A stretch of DNA of 64,000 nucleotides. It comes from Amedibacillus dolichus DSM 3991. GTDB taxonomy: Bacteria; Bacillota_I; Bacilli_A; Erysipelotrichales; Erysipelotrichaceae. Positions 45,843 to 56,635 of the stretch are shown here, one piece after another. The stretch is from positions 186,001-250,000 of the forward strand of contig NZ_DS483474.1 of the NCBI RefSeq assembly GCF_000154285.1. The letters are read 5' to 3'. Numbering within the stretch: position 1 is the stretch's first letter; each line of letters starts with the position of its first letter. The notes under the pieces are model-generated. The model did no database searches, was not told the origin of the DNA, and saw nothing but the letters and a program-made list of their open reading frames with translations. Position numbers and translations under genes: made by a program.

Positions 45843-47084
45843 GTGGCAAAATATGTTTTGATGAATAAAGATACGGAGGTCATGGTAGTAGAGCAAGATG
45901 ATAAAACTTATAAATTCATAGCAATTTTAGAGTTGATAAATACCGCTTATGCTCCATTCGTGATAAAAAATGCTATCGCTTCTTTTCCGGAAAAAACATT
46001 AGATAAAATCAATCAATGGTTTCGATATAGAATCATACCCAATTCAAGAGAGAATAAGTATGAATTGTTAAAGAATATTGATGTAGAGAGTAGTGAAGAA
46101 TTGGCAAATAAGCATTTTGCTTTATCCTTATCAGATCAATATTGGTTAAAGCCTATCCATAGCTCTATTACTTGGAAAAATATAAATTACTTTACAAATG
46201 ATTATGACAGTCATGAATTTTTTGATGCAAATTATGGAAATAATGCATACATTACTTTAACTAAAAAAATTACCACTGCTCTAAGTAGTTTAGAAACTCC
46301 TAATAATACGACTGGAGGACAATTAAAAAAGGCATGGATTAAAATCAATGGAGAAAATTATTTATATAAAGCAAGTGCATCACTTTATAATTTTGATCCG
46401 ATCAATGAAGTAATAGCATCTATGATCTGTGAGATATTAGAAGTACCTTACATACCTTATGAATTAAAAACAATCCAAAATAAAAGACAAAATACGTTGG
46501 TCAGTGTATGTAAATGTATTATCAATGAGAATCAAGAAATTATACCGGCGTATGAGTTGATTGAACATAATCAGAAGTTAAGCGGAACTTTTCAAGATTA
46601 TTATATCTATTTAGATGAATTGGAAAAACATAATATCCCAAGAGCAGAGGAATATTTACAGAAGATGTTTATGCTGGATTATATCATGTTGAATGAAGAC
46701 AGACATTTAACTAATTTTGGTATTATTCGCAATGTAGAAACCTTAGAATGGGAGAGTATTTGTCCTATATTTGATACCGGAAGAAGCAATAATACAAATA
46801 TTTCCGAACCCTATTGGGATTGGAACGAAGGAGAAGTTAAATGCTTTACAGATCATTTTATAACAAGTGAGACTTTATTAGAATTATTCACAATACCACT
46901 TAGAACAGAACAGTTTGAAAAATTAAAAGCTGTAAGCCAAGAGTTTAAGCATTTATTATTCCAATATCAAACATATACCAAACTTTTTGATGAACAAATC
47001 GAAAAAATAGCAAAGGGCTTTGAAACAAGAATGGAATTGTTCTATAGGAAAATGAGAGAAAAGGGCTTGCTTATAGAAGAATAG
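45843..47084 (+). CDS. HipA-like Ser/Thr kinase-fold protein, solitary
   Basis: A 413-residue protein. The C-terminal two thirds have a HipA-type kinase layout: Lys176 in NYLYKA as the ATP lysine, Asp286-Arg-His...Asn291 in NEDRHLTNFG as the catalytic loop, and Asp311 in IFDTGRS as the metal-binding DFG equivalent. The N-terminal part (about 1-110) with FALSLSDQYWLKP is typical of this branch, not of classical HipA. No hipB-like antitoxin gene is adjacent. GTG 45843 is used with GGAG eight bases upstream. Confidence 0.7.
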   Translation: MAKYVLMNKDTEVMVVEQDDKTYKFIAILELINTAYAPFVIKNAIASFPEKTLDKINQWFRYRIIPNSRENKYELLKNIDVESSEELANKHFALSLSDQYWLKPIHSSITWKNINYFTNDYDSHEFFDANYGNNAYITLTKKITTALSSLETPNNTTGGQLKKAWIKINGENYLYKASASLYNFDPINEVIASMICEILEVPYIPYELKTIQNKRQNTLVSVCKCIINENQEIIPAYELIEHNQKLSGTFQDYYIYLDELEKHNIPRAEEYLQKMFMLDYIMLNEDRHLTNFGIIRNVETLEWESICPIFDTGRSNNTNISEPYWDWNEGEVKCFTDHFITSETLLELFTIPLRTEQFEKLKAVSQEFKHLLFQYQTYTKLFDEQIEKIAKGFETRMELFYRKMREKGLLIEE

Positions 47085-47106: not shown

Positions 47107-47172
47107 TTTTAATCTTATTTTAATAAGATCTATCTTACTTTAATCCTACTTTTATTTCTATTATTTTATAAT
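47107..47172 (+). promoter_or_regulatory. Promoter and repeated operator shared with kdpFABC
   Basis: TTTTAAT-N4-TTTTAAT (47107-47124) is followed by TTTAATCCT-AC-TTTTAT (47139-47155). Eleven bases later lies a TATAAT -10 box (47167-47172), and no -35 consensus is present. The same elements with the same 11-base gap stand before kdpF. An activator such as KdpE is the likely ligand. Confidence 0.7.
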
Positions 47173-47196
47173 AATAGTGTAAGGAGGAATTAGAGT

Positions 47197-47409
47197 ATGA
47201 ACCATTCTATATCATTACATAGCTTTCATTTAGCAATGAAGCACTTTCTAACCTCAAGATTGTTTTCTATGGAGCTTTATTTCAGAAAGCATGAAACACT
47301 GTTTATCTTATCTTCCTTTATAATTTTACCGATGATAAGCCTTTTCCTATTATTTATCATCGTTTCTGTTCTGATGCTTCCCATTGCCTGCATATTGGAA
47401 CTGTTATAA
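47197..47409 (+). CDS. Small membrane protein, probable Kdp-regulon member
   Basis: A 70-residue protein with a basic N-terminus and one long hydrophobic helix (about 35-68). I recognise no family. AAGGAGG stands nine bases before the ATG. Its promoter has the repeat block found before kdpF, and it lies next to kdpD-N, so a link with potassium starvation is inferred. A terminator at 47459 ends the transcript. Confidence 0.6.
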   Translation: MNHSISLHSFHLAMKHFLTSRLFSMELYFRKHETLFILSSFIILPMISLFLLFIIVSVLMLPIACILELL

Positions 47410-47458
47410 GCGGAATATAAAAATAAGTAGCAATTAAATAGAAAATCAAAAATACATT

Positions 47459-47485
47459 AAAGACACCGCAAGGTGTCTTTTATTA
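47459..47485. terminator. Bidirectional terminator
   Basis: AAAGACACC and GGTGTCTTT around GCAA, followed by TATT. It separates the small membrane gene from kdpD-N. Confidence 0.85.
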
Positions 47486-47498
47486 AGGTATTAAGCTG

Positions 47499-49388
47499 TC
47501 ATTGTTGTGCAATCGAACTCATCGCAAGTGCTGTTTCATTAAGTATTGCCTTTAATAAATTCTTCTCAAAAGGTAATAGATCATTGCTTGTATTGATCCT
47601 AATGCCGACAACTCCATAGACACAGCTGCCTTTACGAATGGCAAGATACAAAGCCTTAGAATGTGATAATGTGTTTGTGGTCGCACCGGCATTTTTATTA
47701 TTTGTAAATACCCATTTAGCAACTGCTATTTCTTCAATACTGGTTAGCTGCTCTTTAATAGCGGGGAAATCACAAGCCTTATATAAAACACCATCTTGTA
47801 ACTCCTGATGCTTGACAGGATAAAAGATAATCGGACGATGCAGCAGCTGAAAGAGCTGATAACAGGTTTCCTCCATAATTTCATGATAGGTATTTAATAC
47901 CTGCAAGCGCTGACTTGTTTGTAAGATGACCTCCATACTATGCGCATGCAAGGAGGCAAGCATTTTTTCCTTCTTTAAGCGATGTCCCATCATACTAATG
48001 GAAAGCGAAACGATCATCATAACCAAAAACATAATCGGATACTCTTTGGAATCCATCAGCAAGGAAAAGCGTGGTTCAACAAAGAAAATATCAATCAATA
48101 ACAAGGACAGGAATGTAGCGATAAGATTATACAACGGATAAAAGGTCATCATACCGATGAAACAGGAAGCAAGCACATATAGCAAAACGATACTTGTAAT
48201 ATGTACATGAAAGGAATCAAGAAATATGGCAAACAATGTCGTTACCAATAGAACGGTGATAGTAATAATCGCTTCCTGCATATTGAATTTGGATTTTAAG
48301 AGCGTACGGTACTTTTTTTTCATTGCGCCGGATTGCTGATCGGGAATAATATAAATCTCGATTTCCGGTGCCAGTTTGGATAGCTGATCGACAAGCGTTG
48401 TTTTACGAAAGATGGAGGGCTTTTGATAAGAGCGTCCTAAAACAAGCTTGGATACATGGGCATTTTTAGCATATTGACTGATTTGATAAGCAATATCATC
48501 ACCATAGGTAGAAACGATATCTGCTTTGAGATGACGAGCAAGCTCTAGGTTTGCTTGCAGTTGATTTTTTGCCTTTTGTGTAATCCAATCCGCTTGGGAG
48601 GTTTCCACATACAAAGCTGTAAAATCCGCATGAAAGGCTTGTACCATACGAGCAGCTGTACGAATCACCTTTTGATTGGTAGGGGAAGCGCCTAAACATA
48701 CCATGATATGCTCCTTACTAAATGCTTTGTTCGCAGTAGAAGTTATCAGATTGATTCGATCGGCACATCGTCGCATGGCGATTTCTCTTAACGCAATAAG
48801 ATTATCTCTAACAAAGAAATTTTCCAAAGCCCGTTTGGTTTGATTCTTATGATAAATCTTTCCATCTTTTAAACGTTGGATTAAATCATCAACCTCAATA
48901 TCCACAAGTTTTACATCATCGGCATCATCAAAGATATGATCCGGTATTCTTTCATTCACCTGAATGCGTGTAATCATCGCAACGGTATCATGCAAACTTT
49001 CCAAGTGCTGAACATTGATCGTAGTGTAAACATCAATTCCTGCCCGCAGCAGTTCTTCAATATCACTATATCGTTTTTTATGCCGCGATCCGATTGCATT
49101 GGTATGTGCCAGCTCATCAACAAGGATAAGCTTTGGGTGGCGTTGTAAAGCCAAATCCAGATCCAATTCATAAAAGCGATGTTTTTTATACAGTATTTCT
49201 TTTTTATCTAATTGTTCTAAGCCATCAATCAAGGAAATTGTTTCCTTACGATCATGAGGCTCGATATAACCAATGACGACATCGACACCTTCCTGCGCTT
49301 TTTCATGTGCTTCCTTTAACATACTATATGTTTTTCCCACACCTGCGCAATATCCGAAAAATATTTTTAATCTTCCTTTTCTTTGCAT
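47499..49388 (-). CDS. kdpD: KdpD sensor half without kinase domain
   Basis: A 629-residue protein with the input half of KdpD: KdpD N-terminal domain (about 1-210, Walker A FGYCAGVGKT at 11-20), a universal-stress-protein domain (about 225-350), four DUF4118 helices (about 375-475) and a GAF domain (about 495-625). It ends just where the dimerisation and histidine kinase domains should begin (ALAMSSIAQQ). The end is a clean stop, not a frameshift. Truncated N-terminal KdpD proteins are known from cyanobacteria and Deinococcus. A second gene (55058) supplies the missing kinase. Confidence 0.9.
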   Translation of the reverse strand: MQRKGRLKIFFGYCAGVGKTYSMLKEAHEKAQEGVDVVIGYIEPHDRKETISLIDGLEQLDKKEILYKKHRFYELDLDLALQRHPKLILVDELAHTNAIGSRHKKRYSDIEELLRAGIDVYTTINVQHLESLHDTVAMITRIQVNERIPDHIFDDADDVKLVDIEVDDLIQRLKDGKIYHKNQTKRALENFFVRDNLIALREIAMRRCADRINLITSTANKAFSKEHIMVCLGASPTNQKVIRTAARMVQAFHADFTALYVETSQADWITQKAKNQLQANLELARHLKADIVSTYGDDIAYQISQYAKNAHVSKLVLGRSYQKPSIFRKTTLVDQLSKLAPEIEIYIIPDQQSGAMKKKYRTLLKSKFNMQEAIITITVLLVTTLFAIFLDSFHVHITSIVLLYVLASCFIGMMTFYPLYNLIATFLSLLLIDIFFVEPRFSLLMDSKEYPIMFLVMMIVSLSISMMGHRLKKEKMLASLHAHSMEVILQTSQRLQVLNTYHEIMEETCYQLFQLLHRPIIFYPVKHQELQDGVLYKACDFPAIKEQLTSIEEIAVAKWVFTNNKNAGATTNTLSHSKALYLAIRKGSCVYGVVGIRINTSNDLLPFEKNLLKAILNETALAMSSIAQQ

Positions 49389-49458
49389 GCTCTCAACCTT
49401 CCTTATATACCTCTTATTTTACACGAAGGAAATAAAACCAAAAGCAAGAGGGTATCAA

Positions 49459-49525
49459 TTTTAATGCGATTTTAATATTCCATGACTTTCTTTTAATCCT
49501 GTTTTTATATCCTCTGATTTAGAAT
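49459..49525 (+). promoter_or_regulatory. kdpFABC promoter with repeated operator
   Basis: TTTTAAT-N4-TTTTAAT (49459-49476) and TTTAATCCT-GT-TTTTAT (49492-49508), then 11 bases to a TAGAAT -10 box (49520-49525). The -35 region is occupied by the repeat and has no consensus, which fits activation by KdpE. Confidence 0.75.
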
Positions 49526-49568: not shown

Positions 49569-49667
49569 ATGACATTGATGGATCTTTGCATGCTTGCCAT
49601 GCTTGCGGTTTCGTTTCTCGCCATGCTTGGCTTTGTAAGCTATGTAGATAAAATTATTAAAAAGTAG
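49569..49667 (+). CDS. 32-residue membrane micro-protein before kdpF
   Basis: A short ORF MTLMDLCMLAMLAVSFLAML... ending VDKIIKK, preceded by GGGAGGAAAGC. It is almost entirely one membrane helix with a basic C-terminal end. It is followed 12 bases later by kdpF with its own AGGAGG. It resembles no known Kdp subunit and may modulate the pump or its sensor. Confidence 0.6.
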   Translation: MTLMDLCMLAMLAVSFLAMLGFVSYVDKIIKK

Positions 49668-49773: not shown

Positions 49774-51510
49774 ATGTTACAAATCATAGGCACATTGCTT
49801 ATCTTTCTTATTTTGATCTTTCCGATAGGAAATTATGTTTATCATATTGCTACCGGTAAGAAGAGCTTTGTCGATCCGCTCTTTGATCGCATAGATAATA
49901 CGCTTTATAAGGTATTAAGAATACATACAGCGAGTATGGGGTGGAAAAAATATGCTTTATCGTTATTGCTTGTGAATGCCTGCTTGATTTTTGTTGGCTA
50001 TTTGATTTTAAGACTACAAGCTACAAGTCTTTTAAACCCAAATGGTGTCGGTGGCATGGAGGAAGCCTTATCCTTTAATACGATAATTTCCTTTATGACC
50101 AATACCAATCTTCAGCATTATGCAGGAGAATCCGGCTTATCTTATTTATCACAGATGTTAGTGATTATTATGATGATGTTTACTTCGGCAGCAAGTGGCT
50201 ATGCTGCATGTATGGCTATGATACGTGGCTTATTAGGAAAACCAATGGGGAATTTCTATGTTGACTTCATACGTATCATTACTCGCTTTTTATTGCCGAT
50301 GTCCTTTTTTGTCGGTTTATTCCTTGTATGGCAAGGTGTACCACAAAATCTAGCTTCCAATATGACACTTACAACGCTGGAAGGAAAGCTACAGGATATT
50401 GCCAGCGGACCGATTGCAGCGCTAGAATCTATTAAACATTTAGGAACAAACGGTGGTGGCTTTTTAGGAGCCAATTCCGCAACACCACTTGAAAATCCAA
50501 CCATTCTTACCAATCTTGCCGAACTCTATTCCATGATGCTTTTACCGGCATCTTGTGTGTTTGTCTTTGGTCGTATGGCATACGATAAACATCAAGAAAA
50601 GAAAGTAAAGGAAGGGGTTCTTTCCATCAGTGAAGCTCCTGCACAAAAGCGTGTGTGGCTTGGTAAAGAGGGCAGAACAATCTTTGTTGCAATGTCTGTC
50701 TTATTTGTTATCGGATTGGGTCTTTGTTTTTATAGCGAAAGTCAAGGAAATTCAGCTGTGGAGGCTGTGGGTATTTCTCAAACAGCAGGGAATATGGAAG
50801 GTAAAGAGGTACGCTTCGGAGTAGCGCAATCTTCCTTATTTACAACGGTAACAACATCTTTTACGACCGGAACCGTAAACAATATGCACGATACCTTGAC
50901 ACCGCTTGGTGGTTTTGTGCCAATGTTGCACATGATGTTGAATGTGGTGTTCGGCGGTGCGGGAGTCGGCTTAATGAATATGCTAATCTATGCGATTTTG
51001 GCAGTCTTTATCTGTGGCTTGATGATTGGCAGAACACCGGAATATCTAGGTAAGAAAATCGAAGGAAAGGAAATGAAGCTGGCAGCTTTAAGCATCATTA
51101 TTCACCCACTGCTTATTTTAGCTTTTAGTGCACTTGCCGTATCTACACAAGCAGGCTTAGAGGGCATAAGCAATCCGGGTTATCATGGACTTTCACAAAT
51201 ATTGTATGAATTTGCATCATCGGCAGCCAATAACGGCTCCGGCTTTGAAGGGTTAGCCGATAATACATTGTTTTGGAATTTAGCATGTGGTGTGGTTATG
51301 TTTTTAGGACGTTATATGTCAATTATCATTCAGCTGGGTATTGCCGGTAGCTTGATGCAAAAAACAGAAGTAAATGAAACAATCGGAACACTAAAAACCA
51401 ATACTGCTTCCTTTGCGATCATTCTTGTTGTCGTTGTTTATATATTTGCCGCATTGACCTTCTTGCCGTCTTTGGCATTAGGTCCGATTGCCGAATTTTT
51501 AACCATCTAG
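49774..51510 (+). CDS. kdpA: Kdp potassium ATPase subunit A
   Basis: A 578-residue channel-like subunit that selects and binds K+. Four pore repeats are visible, with selectivity segments such as SFNTIISFMTNTNLQHYAGE, HLGTNGGGFLGAN, SFTTGTVNNMHDTLTPLGG and EFASSAANNGSGFEGL. Full length. AGGGAGG precedes the start. Confidence 0.97.
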   Translation: MLQIIGTLLIFLILIFPIGNYVYHIATGKKSFVDPLFDRIDNTLYKVLRIHTASMGWKKYALSLLLVNACLIFVGYLILRLQATSLLNPNGVGGMEEALSFNTIISFMTNTNLQHYAGESGLSYLSQMLVIIMMMFTSAASGYAACMAMIRGLLGKPMGNFYVDFIRIITRFLLPMSFFVGLFLVWQGVPQNLASNMTLTTLEGKLQDIASGPIAALESIKHLGTNGGGFLGANSATPLENPTILTNLAELYSMMLLPASCVFVFGRMAYDKHQEKKVKEGVLSISEAPAQKRVWLGKEGRTIFVAMSVLFVIGLGLCFYSESQGNSAVEAVGISQTAGNMEGKEVRFGVAQSSLFTTVTTSFTTGTVNNMHDTLTPLGGFVPMLHMMLNVVFGGAGVGLMNMLIYAILAVFICGLMIGRTPEYLGKKIEGKEMKLAALSIIIHPLLILAFSALAVSTQAGLEGISNPGYHGLSQILYEFASSAANNGSGFEGLADNTLFWNLACGVVMFLGRYMSIIIQLGIAGSLMQKTEVNETIGTLKTNTASFAIILVVVVYIFAALTFLPSLALGPIAEFLTI

Positions 51511-51530: not shown

Positions 51531-53588
51531 ATGAGCAAAGCAAACAAATCAAAGCTGATAACCAAGGATATTTTAACTGCTTCGATCAAAGGAGCCTTTC
51601 GTAAGCTGAATCCACGCTATATGATGAAAAATCCGGTTATGTTCGTGGTAGAAGTCGGATTCATCATTTGTGTAATACTGATCTTTTTCCCGCATCTCTT
51701 TCATGATCAAGGAAGCTCCTTACGTATTTATAACAGCATTGTTGCTATCATTTTGTTTTTTACCTTATTATTTGCCAATTTTGCCGAGGCAGTCGCAGAA
51801 GGACGTGGCAAAGCACAGGCGGAAACCTTGAAGAAAACCAAAAAGGATACGCAAGCAAGAGTTGTTTTGGAAAACGGTGAAGAAAAAACGATTTCCTCCA
51901 ATGATTTAAAAAAAGGAGATATCGTGCTTGTAAAGGCAGGTGAAATCATACCGGGTGATGGTGAAATTATCGAGGGAATTGCTAGTATTGATGAATCCGC
52001 AATCACCGGAGAATCCGCTCCGGTTACCAAGGAAAGCGGTGGTGATTTTGCCAGTGTAACAGGGGGAACACTTGTTGTATCGGATTGGATCAAAATCGAA
52101 ATTACATCAGATCCGGGACAGTCCTTCCTTGATAAAATGATTGCCTTGGTAGAGGGGGCTTCCAGACAGAAAACACCGAATGAAATAGCATTAAATACGT
52201 TGTTGGTTTCCTTAACGATTATTTTCCTGATTGTGATCGTTACCTTATATCCGATGGCAGCCTACTTAAATATTCATATCTCGATATCTACACTGATCGC
52301 TTTAACGGTTTGCTTGATACCGACTACGATCGGTGGCTTGTTAAGTGCAATCGGCATTGCCGGTATGGATCGGGTTACACGCTTTAATGTAATTGCGATG
52401 TCCGGAAAAGCAGTGGAGGCTTGCGGTGATGTCGATACCATGATTTTGGATAAAACCGGAACGATTACCTTTGGTAACCGATTAGCAAGTGAATTTCTTC
52501 CCGTAGATGGCGTAGAAGAAAAGGAATTGATTGATGTTGCCTGCATGGCTTCGCTTTACGATGATACACCGGAAGGAAAATCAACCGTAGAGCTTGCTAT
52601 GAAGCTTGGAAGTACGATTTGTAAAAGCGATTATGAGCATGTTGAAATAATGGAATTTAGTGCCGCTACGAAAATGAGCGGAATTGATACAAAAGACGGA
52701 CATAGGATTCGTAAAGGGGCACAGGACGCTATAAGTGCTTATATTTCACAAAAGCATGGAACCATTCCTAAGGATCTTACACAAAAGGTCAATCAAATTT
52801 CTAAGCTAGGTGGAACACCGCTTGTTGTATGTGTAGATGAGCGTGTCTTAGGTGTTATTTATTTAAAGGATACTGTTAAACCGGGTTTGGCACAGCGTTT
52901 TGAGCGTTTACGTAAAATCGGTATTAAAACGATTATGTGTACCGGTGATAATCCATTGACTGCTGCCACGATAGCAGCAGAGGCAGGGGTTGATGGTTAT
53001 ATTGCCGAGTGTAAGCCGGAGGATAAAATTGATGCTATTAAGAAAGAGCAGGCAGAGGGAAAAATCGTTGCGATGAGTGGTGATGGTACCAACGATGCTC
53101 CGGCACTTGCCCAAGCTAATGTCGGTATTGCGATGAATAGCGGTACAACGGCTGCTAAGGAAGCTGCCAATATGGTCGATCTTGATTCCAATCCAACCAA
53201 GCTATTGGAAATCGTAGAAATCGGAAAGCAGCTGTTAATTACACGTGGATCTTTAACTACTTTCTCTATTGCCAATGATGTCGCAAAATATTTTGCTATC
53301 ATTCCGGCTATGTTTACCGCAGCGATTCCGCAAATGGAAGTCTTGAATATCATGCAGCTGACTTCCTCCTCCAGTGCTATATTATCTGCCCTGATTTTCA
53401 ATGCCATCATTATTCCATGCTTGATTCCATTAGCAATGAAGGGAGTTGCATACAAACCGATGAGTGCTTCTCGAATGCTGGGAAGAAATATGCTGATCTA
53501 TGGATTAGGTGGTGTGATTTGTCCTTTTATCGGTATTAAGCTGATTGATCTTATGATTTCACCGCTATTGTTATTACTTGGCTTATAA
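51531..53588 (+). CDS. kdpB: Kdp potassium ATPase subunit B
   Basis: A 685-residue P-type ATPase. The phosphorylated Asp is Asp307 in ILDKTGT. The dephosphorylation motif TGES is at residues 159-162, with Ser162 at the site whose phosphorylation inhibits the E. coli pump. [12 protein letters not shown] forms the hinge. Full length. Confidence 0.98.
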
Positions 53589-53599
53589 AGGAGATTGTT

Positions 53600-54226
53600 A
53601 TGAAAAAGATATGGAAAAATATACGAACTGCACTTGTTGTATCCTGTGCGATGTTCTTACTTTGTGGATTTGCTTATCCGATGGCGCTTACCGCAGTATC
53701 TCAACTTGTATTTCCTAAGCAGGCAAATGGAAGTGTTGTAGAATATGATGGAAAAGCGGTTGGATCTGCACTGGTTGGTCAAGATTTCAGTGATGAGCGC
53801 TTATTTCATTGTCGTCCTTCTGCTTATAAGTATAATACCTATACGCAAGAGGATTTAGAAAAGCAGACATACAGTGGACCTGCTTCCGGAAGCAACAACT
53901 ACGCACCAAGCAATCCACAGCTTCAAAAGCGCATTGAAAAAGATGTAAAACAGCTTTTAAAGGACAATCCGACAATGAAAAAAGAGGATATACCCGATGA
54001 TATGATTACAGCCTCCGGTTCCGGTTTAGATCCGCACATTTCCGTAGAAGCAGCTAAATTTCAAATTGATCGCATTGCCAAACATACCGGACTTTCCAAA
54101 CAGGAGTTGGAAAAGTTAATTGATAAACATACCGAACAGCCATTGTTGTCTGTCTTTGGGGAGCAATATGTAAATGTATTGGAGCTAAATGTATCGTTGA
54201 TTGAACAGCTGCCTAGCTTTTCCTAA
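53600..54226 (+). CDS. kdpC: Kdp potassium ATPase subunit C
   Basis: A 208-residue periplasm-facing subunit with one N-terminal helix (about 10-32). The block VGQDFSDERLFHCRPSA, SGSGLDPHIS and the end VLELNVSL are the family markers. It completes kdpFABC, 11 bases after kdpB. Confidence 0.96.
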   Translation: MKKIWKNIRTALVVSCAMFLLCGFAYPMALTAVSQLVFPKQANGSVVEYDGKAVGSALVGQDFSDERLFHCRPSAYKYNTYTQEDLEKQTYSGPASGSNNYAPSNPQLQKRIEKDVKQLLKDNPTMKKEDIPDDMITASGSGLDPHISVEAAKFQIDRIAKHTGLSKQELEKLIDKHTEQPLLSVFGEQYVNVLELNVSLIEQLPSFS

Positions 54227-54302: not shown

Positions 54303-54336
54303 AAAAACAATAAAAAACAAAAGTCAGGTGAGGAAG

Positions 54337-55077
54337 ATGAGTCAAAATATAAAAATCTTGATTGTAGAGGACGATGGTCCGATTCGTAATTTAATAGCTA
54401 CGGCTTTGCAAACCAATGCGTATAAATATGATTTGGCCGCAAATGGAAAAACCGCTTTGTTAGCATTATCAACCCATCATTATGATATTGTCTTATTGGA
54501 TTTGGGGCTACCGGATAAAGACGGTATTGAAATCATCGATCAGCTGCGAACGTTTTCTACAACCCCGATCATCGTCATAAGTGCACGTACCAATGATGAG
54601 GATAAAATTGCAGCCCTTGATGCCGGAGCCGATGATTATTTAACCAAGCCCTTTAGTGTAGAGGAACTTCTTGCCAGAGTACGCTCTACCTTGCGCAGAG
54701 CACAATTTTTGGAAAATCAAAAAAGTCAGCGAGAAGAAATTGCCTTTGAAAACGGTGATTTAAAGATTGATTATCCTTCAAGGACAGTATATTTCCAGGG
54801 AAAAGAACTGCACTTAATGCCCATCGAATACAATTTATTATGTCTTTTGGCACACAATGTCGGTAGAGTATTGACCCATCAATATATCTTAGATAAGGTT
54901 TGGACCAATGCCATGGAATCGGATTTATCCTCTCTGCGTGTATATATGACGACTTTGCGTAAGAAAATCGAAAAGAACAGCATGCAGAAATATATTCAAA
55001 CGCATATCGGAGTCGGATATAAAATGATAAGAGTAACGGATACCAAAGAGGATTCAAATGATGAAGCAGGAGCATAA
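54337..55077 (+). CDS. kdpE: Response regulator KdpE
   Basis: A 246-residue OmpR-type regulator. The receiver has the acidic pair near VEDDG, the phospho-Asp in VLLDLGLPDKDG and the Lys in YLTKPFS. The winged-helix DNA-binding domain covers about 135-240 (SDLSSLRVYMTTLRKKIE). ATG 54337 follows GTGAGGAAG. The start of the kinase gene overlaps its 3' end by 20 bases. Confidence 0.95.
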   Translation: MSQNIKILIVEDDGPIRNLIATALQTNAYKYDLAANGKTALLALSTHHYDIVLLDLGLPDKDGIEIIDQLRTFSTTPIIVISARTNDEDKIAALDAGADDYLTKPFSVEELLARVRSTLRRAQFLENQKSQREEIAFENGDLKIDYPSRTVYFQGKELHLMPIEYNLLCLLAHNVGRVLTHQYILDKVWTNAMESDLSSLRVYMTTLRKKIEKNSMQKYIQTHIGVGYKMIRVTDTKEDSNDEAGA

Positions 55078-56635
55078 AAGAACGATGGGAAGGTTTGTGA
55101 ATATGCACGTTGAGCGTAAAAAGCTATATCTTAGTTTATTGATCTTAACGCTTTCGACATTTATCGGCTTTCTTTTCTTTCAGCTTGGCTTTAATGATTC
55201 CAACATTATTATGCTGTATTTATTAGCAGTATTTTTGATTGCCATTATTACAGCTAATCGTATTTACAGCATTATTTTTTCTTTTATCAGCGTATTGATT
55301 TTTAATTACTTTTTTACCTTTCCGCTCTTAAGCTTATCGGCATACGATTCCGGATATCCGATGACCTTTGTGATCATGTTTACCGTTGCTTTTGTAACGA
55401 GTACGCTTGCGGCAAAGATTCAACAAAATTCGCACTTTTCTGCCCTTATTGCGCAAAGAACCCGTATTTTATTGGAAACCAATCAAATGCTGCAAAAGGA
55501 AATAACCAAAGAGGGGATTATTCAAAAGGGGTGCGAACAGCTTTATAAGCTTTTGAAGCGTGATATTGTTTTTTATCCATATAGTGAGCATGAGCTACAA
55601 GAGGTGTATGTTTATCCACCACAAACAAGTGAGCATTTCAAAGATGTATTATCCGATGAAATTCATGTCGCAAGATGGGTTGCAAAACATAATCGTCATG
55701 GCGGTGCTTCTACCGATTATCTTCCAAATTCGAAGTATTTGTATTTGGCAGTTCGTGCCGATCATAATGTATATGGGGTATTGGGAATTTATTTGGATAA
55801 GGAACAGTTGGATTCCTATGAAAATGATATTTTATTGGCTATTTTAGGTGAAATTGCGTTTGCCTTGGAAATCGAACATATCAACGATGAGAAAAAGCAG
55901 AGTGAGCTAAGGGCGAAAAACGAACAGCTGCGTGCTGATTTGTTGCGTTCTATTTCACATGATTTAAGAACACCGCTGACTTCGATTTCCGGCAATGCCG
56001 ATATGCTTGTCAGTAAGGAGCAGGAATTAGCTCAAAAGGATCGCTTACAGCTTTATGAAGATATTTACGATGATTCCTTATGGTTGATCAATCTAGTTGA
56101 AAATCTATTATCCATTACACGTATGGAGGAGGGAGCTATTCGATTAAAGCTGGAACCGCAGATGATTGAAGATATTTTATACGAAGCTTTGAAGCATGTC
56201 AGTCGTAAGAAAAAGGAACATCATCTTCATGTACAGATTGATGATGATTTGTTAATGGCAGATATGGAAGCTCATTTGATTATTCAGGTCATCATCAATT
56301 TGGTTGATAATGCAATCAAATATACACCGCAAGGTTCTAATATCACACTTCATGCTTATCAAAAGGAAGATATGGTTACGATTGAGGTTTACGATGATGG
56401 GGCAGGTATTCCCGATGATAAAAAAGAGCATATTTTTGATAAGTTTTATCGTGGTAATACGAAGATTGTCGATAGCAAGCGAAGTCTTGGTTTAGGCTTG
56501 GCATTGTGTAAGTCCATTGTTCACTCTCATGGCGGTGAGATTCATGTAATGGATCGTATTCCACATGGCGCAATGTTTTATTTCACATTGCCGGCAACAA
56601 AGCTGAAATTAGAGGAGCATGGGGAAGTTTCATAA
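55058..56635 (+). CDS. kdpD: KdpD kinase half (DUF4118-GAF-histidine kinase)
   Basis: A 525-residue sensor kinase that lacks the N-terminal KdpD and USP domains. It starts with four DUF4118 helices (about 22-118), then a GAF domain (about 145-275), a HisKA domain with His301 (SISHDLRTPLTS) and an HATPase domain (NLVDNAIKYTP, DDGAGIPDD, GLGLALCKSIV). Its DUF4118-GAF part clearly parallels that of the 47499 gene. Overlap with kdpE points to coupled expression. Later starts, such as ATG 55103, are possible. Confidence 0.92.
   Translation: MMKQEHKRTMGRFVNMHVERKKLYLSLLILTLSTFIGFLFFQLGFNDSNIIMLYLLAVFLIAIITANRIYSIIFSFISVLIFNYFFTFPLLSLSAYDSGYPMTFVIMFTVAFVTSTLAAKIQQNSHFSALIAQRTRILLETNQMLQKEITKEGIIQKGCEQLYKLLKRDIVFYPYSEHELQEVYVYPPQTSEHFKDVLSDEIHVARWVAKHNRHGGASTDYLPNSKYLYLAVRADHNVYGVLGIYLDKEQLDSYENDILLAILGEIAFALEIEHINDEKKQSELRAKNEQLRADLLRSISHDLRTPLTSISGNADMLVSKEQELAQKDRLQLYEDIYDDSLWLINLVENLLSITRMEEGAIRLKLEPQMIEDILYEALKHVSRKKKEHHLHVQIDDDLLMADMEAHLIIQVIINLVDNAIKYTPQGSNITLHAYQKEDMVTIEVYDDGAGIPDDKKEHIFDKFYRGNTKIVDSKRSLGLGLALCKSIVHSHGGEIHVMDRIPHGAMFYFTLPATKLKLEEHGEVS

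Follow-up and report, generated by a model that had tools for sequence, protein, structure and literature searches.

In E. coli, kdpFABC is described as the sole target of KdpE (PMC7657598). The KdpE footprint at its promoter spans -72 to -50 of the mapped start, and the half-sites TTTATA and TTTACA in it bind the regulator (PMC3264566). KdpE sites have been reported for E. coli, C. acetobutylicum, S. aureus and M. smegmatis (PMC5401905), and we found no report of a four-half-site KdpE operator in the searchable, non-subscription literature; such an operator may already be known.

Here, we analysed a 64,000-nucleotide stretch of the Amedibacillus dolichus DSM 3991 genome (the window), in which T-rich half-sites (TTTATA/TTTACA type) arranged as an 11-bp direct repeat, the mark of a KdpE promoter, are found at two promoters, one ahead of a gene for an as yet unnamed 70-residue membrane protein and the other ahead of the kdp operon (Table 1). 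Operator 1 with its -10 box (47107-47172) reads TTTTAAT ctta TTTTAAT -13- CTTTAAT ccta CTTTTAT -11- TATAAT, and operator 2 with its -10 box (49459-49525) reads TTTTAAT gcga TTTTAAT -14- TTTTAAT cctg TTTTTAT -11- TAGAAT. The element TTTTAAT-N4-TTTTAAT, which the original prediction had reported ahead of both, is indeed present twice, followed by CTTTAATcctaCTTTTAT in operator 1 and by TTTTAATcctgTTTTTAT in operator 2. Each operator is made up of four TTTTAAT-like 7-bp half-sites forming two 11-bp direct repeats, best described by half-site offsets of 0, 11, 31/32 and 42/43, and two of those in operator 1 (CTTTAAT and CTTTTAT) are weaker. The last box lies exactly 11 bp from the -10 hexamer at both promoters and no -35 consensus fits at either, as had been claimed. 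The claim of identical spacing stands for this distance, but not for the operators as a whole, since the central gap between the box pairs is 13 bp in operator 1 and 14 bp in operator 2.

Table 1. Features of the kdp locus in the window, with TPR protein genes of other kdp loci in the last row.
Feature	Position	Strand	Basis
Distal half-site pair, operator 1, TTTTAAT-ctta-TTTTAAT	47107..47124	+	sequence, genome pattern search, matrix scan
Proximal half-site pair, operator 1, CTTTAAT-ccta-CTTTTAT, in place of -35	47138..47155	+	matrix scan, motif search
-10 hexamer TATAAT, 11 bp past operator 1	47167..47172	+	sequence, matrix scan
Ribosome-binding site AAGGAGG	47181..47187	+	sequence
70-residue small membrane protein, one of a kdp-linked family of five	47197..47409	+	homology, profile, alignment, structure prediction
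Terminator-like hairpin between 70-residue gene and convergent KdpD sensor gene	47459..47480	.	sequence
KdpD sensor half (KdpD domain with Walker A, Usp, DUF4118; no histidine kinase)	47499..49388	-	domain search
Distal half-site pair, operator 2, TTTTAAT-gcga-TTTTAAT	49459..49476	+	sequence, genome pattern search, matrix scan
Proximal half-site pair, operator 2, TTTTAAT-cctg-TTTTTAT	49491..49508	+	matrix scan, motif search
-10 hexamer TAGAAT, 11 bp past operator 2	49520..49525	+	sequence, matrix scan
32-residue membrane peptide, first kdp operon gene	49569..49667	+	kdp locus comparison
Canonical KdpF, 25 residues	49680..49757	+	PF09604, E 1.3e-11
KdpA	49774..51510	+	domain search
KdpB	51531..53588	+	domain search
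KdpC	53600..54226	+	domain search
KdpE response regulator, OmpR/PhoB type; proposed activator of both operators	54328..55077	+	domain search
Histidine-kinase half of split KdpD (DUF4118, GAF, HisKA, HATPase)	55058..56635	+	domain search
TPR protein genes	L031 10000-10422, L169 9795-10217, L163 8257-8682, L161 7014-7427		

The gene map differs from expectation at one point: kdpF had been placed directly after the second operator, but the first gene there encodes a 32-residue peptide. Similar peptides, ending like W-x-x-K-Q-I-x-K, stand ahead of KdpF in about ten other kdp loci. C. acetobutylicum likewise has small hydrophobic open reading frames (orfZ/orfY) 5' of kdpA, a parallel in a Firmicutes kdp operon. 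KdpD is split in the window, with a sensor half (Walker A GYCAGVGKT) divergent from kdp and the DUF4118-GAF-histidine kinase part separate, past kdpE; a separate KdpD sensor half was also seen in G059, G067, G073, G054, G043, G038, G083 and G252. A serine kinase that switches off KdpB has been described (PMC11018627), and the sensor half may be such a kinase, here freed from the histidine kinase. A TPR protein of ~125-130 residues is encoded in or just 5' of the kdp operon in G059, G067, G073 and G252. The neighbour upstream of operator 1 (45843-47084) codes for a protein of 413 residues that matches HipA_C weakly, under the Pfam cut-off.

A scan of related genomes had been proposed as a check, with lack of conservation as the refuting outcome, and the result favours the proposal: the operator was found 5' of kdp across the order Erysipelotrichales as well as in E. 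coli, Providencia and Comamonas. Among 60 relatives, the strict pattern matched the DNA 5' of kdpA in G059 and G054, and a KdpA search through 315 genomes of the order identified 33 that carry kdp. A simple half-site matrix was run over the upstream regions of 27 kdp loci, with central gaps of 13-15 and -10 spacings of 10-12 permitted; the top match combined a gap of 13 or 14 with a spacing of 11 in 22 of them. Most kdp loci of the order thus have this geometry, with 11 always the best -10 spacing. Operators at these loci scored 21-39, whereas the shuffle means ranged from roughly -3 to 10; the scores are partly circular inside the order because the matrix was hand-seeded from its loci; therefore, promoters outside the seed set (E. 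coli, Providencia and Comamonas) served as the test. A fixed four-box pattern with a central gap of 15, one base off, returned only noise, and in genus g62 (5 loci), as read by eye, the pair at the proximal position alone is kept, again 11 bp ahead of the -10. We thus show both the operator and its conservation.

When spacing was left free on promoters outside the seed set (gaps of 10-19 and -10 spacings of 7-16, 100 combinations), a gap of 14 with a spacing of 11 was the best combination in E. coli, in Providencia and in 7/7 Comamonas kdp promoters, the last being close relatives worth about one independent case. The best fit at the E. coli K-12 kdp promoter is TTTTTAT actt TTTTTAC -14- TTTTTGC gaaa TCTTTGC -11- TACCCT, with a score reached by 0/300 shuffles. 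The 7-4-7-14-7-4-7-11 layout can thus be read in the kdpFABC promoter of E. coli, which, like ours, has T-rich half-sites in an 11-bp direct repeat at about -72 to -50. Its distal (upstream) pair contains the footprinted half-sites TTTATA/TTTACA (PMC3264566), and the repeat-to-start distance at our two promoters, positioned from the -10 alone, agrees with E. coli (~-72 to -50). The two systems differ in that the distal pair alone has been described for E. coli (PMC3264566), where the proximal pair is degenerate. This apparent second, weaker pair (TTTTTGC-gaaa-TCTTTGC, 11 bp before TACCCT; L157, E. coli 728500-731500) has no description in the KdpE papers examined, and it is less degenerate in Providencia, whose kdpA frame is interrupted. 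The layout would amount to a precise rule for KdpE promoters, valid from Firmicutes to E. coli and Comamonas, that predicts a second KdpE site in the kdp promoter of E. coli, at about -41 to -24, and would allow Kdp regulons to be predicted in unstudied bacteria.

The 70-residue protein has no match in Pfam, NCBIfam or solved structures, and it does not match the KdpF family (PF09604), whereas the separate KdpF does. With the single sequence as query, 60 relatives yielded nothing at E 0.001. A looser search over the 315 genomes gave ~70 weak matches, among which those in G012 and G085, obtained with the window protein alone as query, were singled out because they lie just 5' of kdpA (within 600 bp). 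Two further members, in G020 and G068, were seen on inspecting other kdp loci, giving four relatives among 315 genomes, each directly upstream of kdp. In the five-member alignment H32, P45, F53 and P62 are invariant, and the window protein is a divergent member, 19-31% identical to the other four. It scored above 1000/1000 composition-preserving shuffles against the G085, G012 and G020 proteins and above 970/1000 against that of G068, whose protein in turn gives clear scores with the remaining members. A profile built from the five recovered exactly these five from the 315 genomes (E up to 2e-18), the next match (5e-5) falling in an interrupted 703-residue frame; membership judged by profile and shared residues is partly by construction, as the members define the family, although G012 and G085 had been reached through the window protein alone. 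No members beyond the five were found in a phylum sample of 392 genomes.

All five genomes carry kdp, compared with 33/315 overall, and, on these comparisons, the 70-residue protein is a genuine family found solely beside kdp, a linkage observed directly. The small protein is missing from 28/33 kdp-bearing genomes and is therefore dispensable for Kdp. Structure prediction gave an amphipathic helix at the N terminus and, after it, a long hydrophobic membrane helix, with a pTM of about 0.5, and we therefore claim no fold; basic residues preceding the helix suggest that the N terminus is inside. E. coli is not known to have a second small gene of this family under KdpE control. YbfA, encoded beside kdp there, was rejected as a homologue (score 21 vs a shuffle mean of 21.6).

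Gene arrangement links this family to the Kdp regulon. In a genome of the same taxonomic family (G085) and one of a sister family (G068), one four-site operator serves the small gene and another the kdp operon gene after it. G012 and G020 have just one operator, ahead of the small gene, which there opens the kdp operon; kdpF comes next. In the window, the reversed KdpD sensor gene parts the small gene from the pump and each retains its operator; the small gene has its own promoter in 3/5 genomes. The best case for placing the small gene in the Kdp regulon is that two families have kept paired operators. The proposal of a new regulon member also gains support from a family that occurs solely beside kdp and that, in G085 and G068, is preceded by an operator of its own built to this design. 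The 70-residue protein is very likely part of the potassium-starvation response, because its gene has the same four-part switch as the pump genes and this pairing is kept in relatives. Given the sequence evidence, we regard with considerable confidence the two promoters as the Kdp regulon of this bacterium, under KdpE. A new protein family would join the small Kdp regulon, for which kdpFABC is described as the sole KdpE target in E. coli (PMC7657598).

From this layout we infer KdpE binding and induction at low potassium. Under potassium limitation, phosphorylated KdpE would occupy the four half-sites as two head-to-tail dimers. With the -10 set at -12 to -7, the distal pair falls at about -72 to -55 and the proximal one at about -41 to -24. 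The proximal pair would substitute for the absent -35 and aid RNA polymerase onto the -10 eleven bases downstream; an activator pair at the -35 position is the layout of PhoB-type activators. Operator 2 would drive the pump operon (genes for the 32-residue peptide, KdpF, KdpA, KdpB and KdpC, followed by those for KdpE and the kinase), and operator 1 would drive the monocistronic 70-residue gene.

Since the 70-residue protein would be made with the pump yet from its own promoter, its most likely target is the Kdp system itself, where it would serve the KdpFABC pump or the sensor as an accessory or feedback protein. The roles of pump accessory and of feedback regulator of sensor or pump appear about equally likely: patchy occurrence and a separate promoter lean slightly to regulation, and the fact that the small gene heads the kdp operon in G012 and G020 favours the pump. 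That it is a structural accessory subunit of the pump, KdpF-like and not a regulator, is a serious possibility short of an even chance. Like KdpF, it would be a small membrane protein made with the Kdp pump, with one long membrane helix predicted, and in G012 and G020 it would be made in step with the pump as the first product of the operon. However, KdpF has about 25-30 residues rather than 70, a normal KdpF is also present, most kdp operons of the order have no such protein, and its own promoter in three of five genomes sits uneasily with a subunit.

Feedback on the sensor, as MgrB acts on PhoQ, is plausible if somewhat doubtful. MgrB-type proteins are small membrane proteins under a response regulator whose sensor may be their target (PMC8534201), and the 70-residue protein likewise is a small protein with a membrane helix (hydrophobic segment, helical models), with its own promoter and the operator of the same response regulator; mycobacterial KdpF, moreover, binds KdpD in two-hybrid tests (PMC3618439). 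On the other hand, its sequence is unrelated to MgrB-type proteins as far as known, a contact with the sensor is hypothetical, and it is found with fused (G085, G012, G068) and split KdpD (window) alike, so that no particular sensor form is required. A link with the split KdpD was rejected, as the three other members examined have fused KdpD. We tentatively suggest a broader picture in which KdpE operators in distant phyla, including E. coli, consist of four half-sites, the proximal pair standing in for the -35, and in which those of this Firmicutes order also drive a new small membrane protein family feeding back on the Kdp sensor or pump.

The factor acting on both operators is likely KdpE, the single activator originally proposed, because the same spacing recurs at most kdp loci of the order, as well as in E. 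coli, Providencia and Comamonas, and the upstream pair in E. coli is a footprinted KdpE site (PMC3264566). By inspection, the KdpE recognition helix broadly tracks operator type in the order: operators of the TTTTAAT type, to which both window operators belong, go with the helix DLSSLRVY, and those of the TCTTAAT/TCTTTAT type mostly with DVASLRVF or similar. PhoB-type regulators also use 11-bp direct repeats adjoining the -10, so another OmpR/PhoB-family regulator, PhoP for example, could act on both promoters, with co-regulation of kdp reflecting another stress, and the window KdpE has only a moderate score against the KdpE equivalog model. This is improbable, however, given that the operator occurs nowhere else in the genome and is present at kdp in distant phyla, that its distal pair corresponds to the KdpE footprint in E. 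coli (PMC3264566), and that kdpE sits in the same operon.

The arrangement had been called hard to explain by chance, and this held in the whole genome (2.19 Mb, 19 contigs), where a strict triple box (the first three boxes, any gap of 10-20) matched twice, both times at these promoters, with 0 matches in the reversed control. The looser proximal pair plus -10 gave 4 matches genome-wide: two at the promoters, a third in a register that overlaps the first promoter, and a fourth within the kinase gene (window 55300). The bases between the boxes of operators 1 and 2 are unrelated except for CCT, which argues against a recent copy of the kdp promoter, and this origin was rejected. Even though the boxes are AT-rich and looser motifs are about as frequent as in reversed controls in some relatives, it is highly improbable that the likeness of the operators reflects chance in AT-rich DNA or the remnant of a recent kdp promoter duplication, an explanation at odds with the strict-pattern counts and contradicted by the conservation of paired operators in G085 and G068. 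A proximal-pair-plus-10 motif was also seen in G073 (L138 1501-1535), followed by a long leader and then a P-type cation ATPase gene, which may be an extra target or a chance match.
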